This document shows, in pieces, positions 26,807 through 27,735 of a stretch of 64,000 bases of DNA. Every line of letters starts with the position of its first letter. Positions within the stretch are counted from its first letter, which is position 1. Both the position numbers and the translations under genes were made by a program. This stretch comes from Ferruginibacter sp. (GTDB lineage: Bacteria; Bacteroidota; Bacteroidia; Chitinophagales; Chitinophagaceae). Under the pieces are notes generated by a model. It did no database searches. It was not told the origin of the DNA and was given only the letters and a program-made list of their open reading frames with translations. The stretch spans positions 124,001-188,000 of the forward strand of contig JAHBTP010000003.1 of assembly GCA_019638485.1 (NCBI GenBank). The letters are read 5' to 3'.

Positions 26807-27532
26807 TTATTCTTTCCAATAATAACTATCCGGATAAATTCGTTCGCCAAAAATAGCTGTTCCTACACGTATTAGGGTTGCTCCTTCTTCAATGGCTATT
26901 TCCAAATCATGGCTCATTCCCATGGATAACACATCCATTTCTACTCCATTTATTTTGTGTTTGATAATATCTTGCTGCAAATCCTTCATCTTTCTAAAAC
27001 ATGGTCTCACTTTATTTTCTTCTGCCGAGAACAAACCAATAGTCATTAATCCTTTAATATGAAGAGTGCTTAATAATGACACTTTTTTAATCAATTCAAC
27101 CGTATCTTGTGGTGATACTCCAAATTTACTTTCTTCATCAGATGAATTAACCTGAATAAGGATATTCATTTCTTTCTTTTCAAATGTTAGTCTGGCGTGT
27201 AATTTTTCTGCAATTTCAAAACGGTCAATACTTTGAATACAGCTCACCTTACACTTAAGTAAATCTTTAATTTTATTAGATTGAAGGTGCCCTATAAAAT
27301 GGCTCTCATGGGGAATACCTTTTAGTTCATTGAATTTTTCTTTAAGCTCTTGGACTTTATTTTCTCCAATTAGGAATTCGCCAGCCTGCAATGCAATTTT
27401 TATTCTTTGTGCCGGAACAGTTTTGGTAGCCATTAGTAATCTGATAGTATTAGGGTTACGACCAACAGCAACACATGCATTGTTGATTCGGTGGTGGATT
27501 AGATTTAGGTTATGCAAACAGGGGTCATCCAT
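26807..27532 (-). CDS. YggS/PLPBP-family pyridoxal-phosphate homeostasis protein
   Basis: A 241-residue alanine-racemase-fold protein: IRLLMATKTVPAQRI (PLP lysine in the TKT motif near residue 36), FIGENKVQE, HFIGHLQSNKIK, IQVNSSDEESKFG and the C-terminal LSMGMSHDLEIAIEEGATLIRVGTAIFG phosphate-binding segment. Family members buffer and deliver PLP and have no known catalytic turnover. ATG at 27532 is preferred to an upstream GTG at 27562, which lies inside the adjoining inverted repeat. Confidence 0.93.
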   Translation of the reverse strand: MDDPCLHNLNLIHHRINNACVAVGRNPNTIRLLMATKTVPAQRIKIALQAGEFLIGENKVQELKEKFNELKGIPHESHFIGHLQSNKIKDLLKCKVSCIQSIDRFEIAEKLHARLTFEKKEMNILIQVNSSDEESKFGVSPQDTVELIKKVSLLSTLHIKGLMTIGLFSAEENKVRPCFRKMKDLQQDIIKHKINGVEMDVLSMGMSHDLEIAIEEGATLIRVGTAIFGERIYPDSYYWKE

Positions 27533-27544
27533 GATATTATTATT

Positions 27545-27735
27545 TAAAATTAGATTATCCACTTAGCGCGCATAATAAAATAATGTATTTCAGCGTGCTA
27601 CTCCAAAAATGGCGATGAAAATGCTTTTTCTAAATGCAAAGATCTAACTTTATAAGGTTAGAAAGCAGTGGAGAGCTTATTCATAGCAAGAATTTGAAAA
27701 TGGGAAATGCGTCGTAAGTGGATAATCAGAATTTA
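27545..27735. repeat. MITE-like element with terminal inverted repeats (candidate)
   Basis: GATTATCCACTTA at 27553-27565 is repeated as its exact reverse complement at 27715-27727. The match continues inward with CGCAT after three mismatches (18 of 21) and outward as an imperfect AAATT match, giving terminal inverted repeats of about 21-28 bp. The roughly 150 bp between has no coding frame and includes an inner inverted repeat TCTAAC/GTTAGA (27643-27662). The element fills the gap between the YggS start and the MmcQ stop. I saw no second copy in this window and no convincing target-site duplication. Confidence 0.45.

Follow-up and report, generated by a model that had tools for sequence, protein, structure and literature searches.

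Between the housekeeping genes mmcQ (YjbR) and yggS of a Ferruginibacter genome lies a short stretch of non-coding DNA bounded by an inverted repeat. Is it a mobile element, a signal for its neighbours or a chance repeat? An earlier note proposed a miniature inverted-repeat transposable element (MITE) at 27545-27735 of the window, the 64,000-nucleotide stretch of DNA that was analysed. An element is present; its ends set it at 27553-27727, a non-coding inverted-repeat element of 175 bp. It is probably a single-copy, non-autonomous inverted repeat of the MITE type, with ends from a divergent IS1595-like group in the same genome. This MITE-like reading is the best one because the ends match IS1595-like ends and both arms lead the profile ranking of the window.

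26807..27532, minus strand: yggS-like gene (Pfam Ala_racemase_N); 20 bp separate its ATG from the element
27553..27573, plus strand: left terminal inverted repeat; perfect over 13 bp, then 3 mismatches and CGCAT; top-ranked in the window with each of three IS-end profiles (22.2-25.2 bits)
27574..27706, no strand: interior, non-coding, 133 bp; longest enclosed ORF 27 aa
27707..27727, minus strand: right terminal inverted repeat; second in the window with each of these profiles (18.0-23.4 bits); shares 20/22 positions with the left end of the resident element C3
27733..28065, minus strand: mmcQ/YjbR-like gene, with an assumed start codon; 6 bp from the right end of the element to the stop codon

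The inverted repeat and its neighbourhood

The arms pair at 13 of 13 positions (GATTATCCACTTA), followed by three mismatches and CGCAT/ATGCG. This confirms the 18 of 21 paired positions described before, five of the eight inward ones matching. Read from outside to inside, the ends are GATTATCCACTTAGCGCGCAT and GATTATCCACTTACGACGCATT. A 29-nucleotide version of the repeat, including outward AT-rich bases, has 79% identity. With no ORF above 27 aa wholly inside, the element is short and without a transposase gene; the claim that it lacks coding capacity was borne out. One end lies just upstream of the likely yggS ATG at 27532, as the earlier note had it, and an alternative GTG (27562) falls within the left arm. 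The other end was thought to reach the mmcQ stop codon; this codon (27733-27735) is close to the right end at 27727 and outside it.

The suggestion that the element supplies a promoter for yggS or a terminator for mmcQ found no support. The element contains no sigma-70-type promoter, no Bacteroidetes-type promoter at up to one mismatch from the consensus, and no terminator-like site. A role as an RNA element of the mmcQ-yggS transcript, be it terminator, attenuator or leader structure, is very improbable. A 201-nucleotide stretch does fold better than its shuffles (z -4.5 on the minus and -3.6 on the plus strand). The interior alone is not unusual (z -1.3 versus composition shuffles, on either strand), so the excess comes mainly from the stem of the two ends. 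A 133-nucleotide loop is unlike a terminator, and the best Rfam match had an E value of 0.6, below the gathering scores.

Taken alone, the inverted repeat is modest and only mildly beyond chance. It is the only perfect inverted repeat of at least 13 bp with a loop of at least 20 and a span of at most 250 in the window. In 100 dinucleotide shuffles of the window, such repeats occurred at a mean of 0.45 and at least once in 36. Shuffles with a repeat that also matched at five or more of eight inward positions were rarer (3/100). An intergenic inverted repeat of chance or unrelated origin, which would fit these three shuffles and the single copy, is improbable: no other sites in the window match IS ends of another genus as well as the two arms do. 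It is this match of the ends that gives the repeat its significance.

Ends shared with IS1595-like elements

The genome (2.76 Mb, 7 contigs) was searched with the element. The best match outside the element, C3:202117-202142 (E 0.02), is located directly outside an IS1595-type ORF, a zinc ribbon gene. The right end of the element and the left end of C3 agree at 20 of 22 bp, a match to which a BLAST search of nine elements assigned an E value of 2.8e-4. The genome contains two further relatives, C1 and C2, whose inverted ends follow this pattern too. All 11 candidates in the genome were scored, and none other than C1-C3 was an IS1595-like match.

C1, 60959-61842: resident IS1595-like element, inverted ends 19/22; ends from outside to inside GATTATCCATAATAGCCCCG and GATTATCCATATTATGCCCG
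C2, 516046-516950: resident IS1595-like element, inverted ends 21/22; ends GATTATCCATTTTAGTTCC and GATTATCCATTTAAGTTCC
C3, 202121-202947: resident IS1595-like element, inverted ends 18/22; ends GCTTATCCACTTAGGACGCATT and GGTTATCCACATAGAACGCCTT

Sites within one mismatch of GATTATCCAYWTA occur 56 times in the genome, versus 22 times for the reversed control. Convergent pairs of such sites within 1.5 kb are found at three places: the element, C2 and C3. C1 has one end only within one mismatch.

C3 was found through its resemblance to the element and is therefore not independent evidence. Two profiles are independent of it, and both agree. The first was built from another genus: genome G438 has five such genes, and the eight ends of four elements were used; the fifth element (L140), with a different-looking inverted pair, was left out. 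On both strands of the window, the arms of the element rank first and second with 22.45 and 18.74 bits, and the next site has 12.93. A profile from 12 ends without C3 gave 22.15 and 18.03 bits, followed by 12.39. G438 has no further end sites at up to two mismatches. Ends from G058, G077 and G438 share an inner core, YTTAGG(C/T)CGC, and the element carries the related CTTAGCGCGC and CTTACGACGC. An end search around the ORFs of relatives (26 loci, no control) found inverted ends of at least 18/22 in seven: C1, C2, C3, L092, L095, L101 and L103.

The ends also bear on a replication signal. The arm holds TTATCCACT, one mismatch from the DnaA box, and the GC skew changes sign near 27 kb. The skew change says little because the sign also changes near 7, 18, 51 and 58 kb. 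Moreover, ends of C1, C2 and G438 read TTATCCAT or differ further, yet keep the IS-end pattern. Paired DnaA-box-like sites (TTATCCAC), or another replication signal, are thus hardly probable at all.

The resemblance stops at the ends. The interior has no similarity beyond 12-13 bp to the nine IS1595-like elements (blastn-short): the element matches C3 at the ends only, and there is a 13-bp match in C2 and a 12-bp match in G058. Since only the ends are common, the element did not arise from a resident one by simple internal deletion.

Copy number and target site

A search of the genome with the whole element returned one full match and 28 short ones, two of which are its own arms. There is no second copy in the window, as stated before, and the proposed check for further genome copies with matching ends yielded this one full copy only. 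The other 97 genomes gave only short partial matches among the up to eight best candidates scored per genome; counting the element's own genome, 44 of 98 had matches at E ≤ 0.1, which on the same scoring were short and taken for noise. The earlier note regarded a sequence with no other copies, located at this same place in distant relatives as well, as speaking against its reading. The first half holds, the second does not.

An 8-bp target duplication was not found: the best symmetric match at the element is 5/8, and unequal offsets give 6/8. It is also absent from ten IS1595-like elements (C1-C3, four of G438, two of G115 and one of G058), with a best symmetric match of 5/8; C1, C2 and C3 reach 5, 3 and 3 of 8. 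Causes described for missing duplications include decay, recombination and adjacent deletion (PMC11708052). With one copy and no target duplication, two usual MITE hallmarks are thus missing. What stands of the MITE-like assignment is the match of the ends to IS1595-like elements of the same genome and of another genus. An empty site was sought in relatives: among 29 loci drawn from 46 relatives with an mmcQ match, none has yggS in the about 1.5 kb of sequence covered downstream of mmcQ; two of these loci offer only 33 and 527 bases there.

The genome_contigs set was also scanned for such ends 121-181 bp apart. None of the 14 loci found has CGCAT at the inner position. L149:522-711, in an Alphaproteobacteria MAG, looks like a separate miniature element. 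It has perfect 25-bp ends (ACTGCTTATCCACTTAACTCCCGTT) and, by eye, an 8-bp duplication (AAATTAAT), and occurs once in its genome.

The resident transposase genes

We infer that a transposase of the IS1595-like group acted in trans: it would have recognised both ends and inserted the element between mmcQ and yggS. The earlier note had advised a search for a transposase with the same terminal repeats. Three IS1595-like elements share the ends; none of the three keeps both catalytic aspartates, and the element therefore looks stranded.

The Pfam zinc ribbon is above the cut-off in C2 and C3 and just below it in C1. DDE_Tnp_IS1595 is above the cut-off in C1 and C2, with its last ~30 positions only, and was not found in C3. 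NCBIfam NF033547 scores 56.3, 65.9 and 35.9 bits for C1, C2 and C3 against a cut-off of 75. The first catalytic Asp is kept in C1 and, per one alignment, in C2. The ORFs of C1 and C2 are open at 278 and 302 aa and keep N- and C-terminal parts; the second catalytic Asp is missing. Judged from these residues, the resident genes seem to have lost what is needed to cut DNA, and the autonomy of any partner element in this genome is doubtful. C3 forms a long, uncertain branch and looks eroded.

The three resident ORFs (L088:521-1357, L089:703-1611 and L002:1587-2342) run through their own right-hand end. That end is thus coding as well, for a stretch that the three have in common: M-D-N-R in C1 and C2, V-D-N-H in C3.

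The loss extends to relatives. Both catalytic aspartates are kept in none of the five G438 genes and none of 20 G115 genes. Other genomes have D, D and H at the catalytic positions (G029, G058, G070, G189, G297 with two, G325, G400 and G444) or D, D and E (G038, G046 and G084). In a tree of 26 rows, the Asp loss falls in two places, the branch of the resident genes with G438 (100/99) and the G115 branch (100/98). Trees that need just one loss made up 0% of 200 bootstraps; the Asp pair was apparently lost twice independently. Alignment and tree excluded G028, G077 and G094, represented only by fragments under 200 aa, and a second G444 fragment. The protein search scored up to six best candidates per genome at E ≤ 1e-30, and genomes counted as zero may have weaker members. 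A protein scan of genome_contigs with alignment A1 gave 95 pattern matches, of which none was confirmed.

Selection and spread in G115

G115 had 22 matches, 20 of them near full-length; one of the 20 keeps the second Asp. These 20 paralogous genes are at L123, L134, L137, L139, L141, L142, L159, L161 and the G115 loci among L169-L196. The dN/dS ratio is 0.05-0.24 in seven of 21 pairs, with pair e-f (0.24) near saturation; the other 14 have saturated dS and no ratio. What does selection keep in 20 of 20 near full-length genes that lack the Asp pair and have, where measurable, dN/dS well below 1?

A further question is how copies spread that are predicted not to cut. In G115, two copies with unrelated flanks (124 and 131 of 399) agree at 932 of 962 bases (dS 0.14), which means that the unit has, at some time, been copied to another site. 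Four of the 11 exact end sites in G115 lie no more than 175 bp from the end of a contig; this suggests that some copies are missing from the assembly. The end search at the 20 loci, with 15 shuffles each, found terminal repeats that beat every shuffle at nine (L174, L177, L180, L182, L183, L185, L192, L193 and L195); at the other 11 they did not exceed all their own shuffles. The spread may be due to a transposase, not found here, that helps in trans, to transposition that preceded the loss, or to catalysis that goes unrecognised.

These observations bear on a candidate operator function, possibly of transposon origin. Here, the ends would be bound by the disarmed transposase-derived proteins of C1 and C2 and would influence mmcQ and yggS. 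The open C1 and C2 frames agree with this, and the arms are still identical at 13/13 although nothing detected in the genome seems capable of mobilising the element. Selection on the G115 relatives points in the same direction, as does a core common to the right ends of G115 copies a, b, f and g at 16/16 positions at a dS of 0.8-1.6 (pairs except a-b). However, the selection figures stem from a genome other than that of C1 and C2. Two ends, the left one of copy f and the right one of the L161 copy, lie more than two mismatches from the core, and a recent insertion or gene conversion may also explain identical arms. The operator is kept as a rather unlikely candidate. A broader version is unlikely as well: bacterial transposase families would have lost catalysis at least twice independently, and selection would preserve their genes along with the terminal repeats as a network of protein and binding sites, with the element as a gene-less operator node between mmcQ and yggS.

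Comparison with known systems

The preferred reading, a non-autonomous MITE-type element with IS1595-like ends, has counterparts. Bacterial MITEs include Correia, BrickBuilt and MITEAba12 (PMC10969869). Like those described there, the element is short, non-coding and intergenic, and has terminal inverted repeats in common with IS-like elements. It differs from them by its single copy, the lack of a target duplication and the lack of a partner with intact catalytic residues in the genome searched. Since repetition is how miniature elements are found, single-copy ones are usually overlooked; here, recognition came from the ends.

The elements with the same ends encode zinc-ribbon proteins as in the IS1595 family (Zn_ribbon_IS1595, DDE_Tnp_IS1595, NF033547). 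Members of this family are described as usually carrying a DDE motif, 8-bp duplications and, in every group except IS1016, a zinc finger (PMC8101967); ISApl4 also has 8-bp duplications (PMC12561309). In contrast, no resident, G438 or G115 copy has both catalytic aspartates, and no 8-bp duplication was found here.

The plant regulators DAYSLEEPER and FHY3/FAR1 derive from transposases, have kept the DNA-binding part and have lost catalysis. Unlike these, the family here is bacterial, multi-copy and end-flanked, and regulation is a candidate function only. Merlin-related proteins of ciliates and Symbiodinium are eukaryotic relatives of IS1595 for which domestication was proposed (PMC8101967). 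As in the partner family, ORFs are preserved and the DDE motif is not conserved in several. They are eukaryotic and most were described without terminal repeats, whereas several bacterial copies here keep their ends. This is the nearest work: none of the literature matches listed, mostly without subscription papers, describes a bacterial IS1595-like family that is disarmed and end-flanked. Literature matches for IS1595 with Chitinophag, IS1595 with 7TMR-DISM and ISXO2-like transposase with Bacteroidetes were nil.

Four further loci, L128-L131 (G338, G233, G446 and G369), have the N-terminal part of the IS1595 type, with zinc ribbon and helix-turn-helix region, in frames of 641-675 aa. These frames have a long sensor-like N-terminus, with 7TMR-DISM domains in L129, the one tested with Pfam. 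It looks as if the DNA-binding part of a transposase was reused as an output domain.
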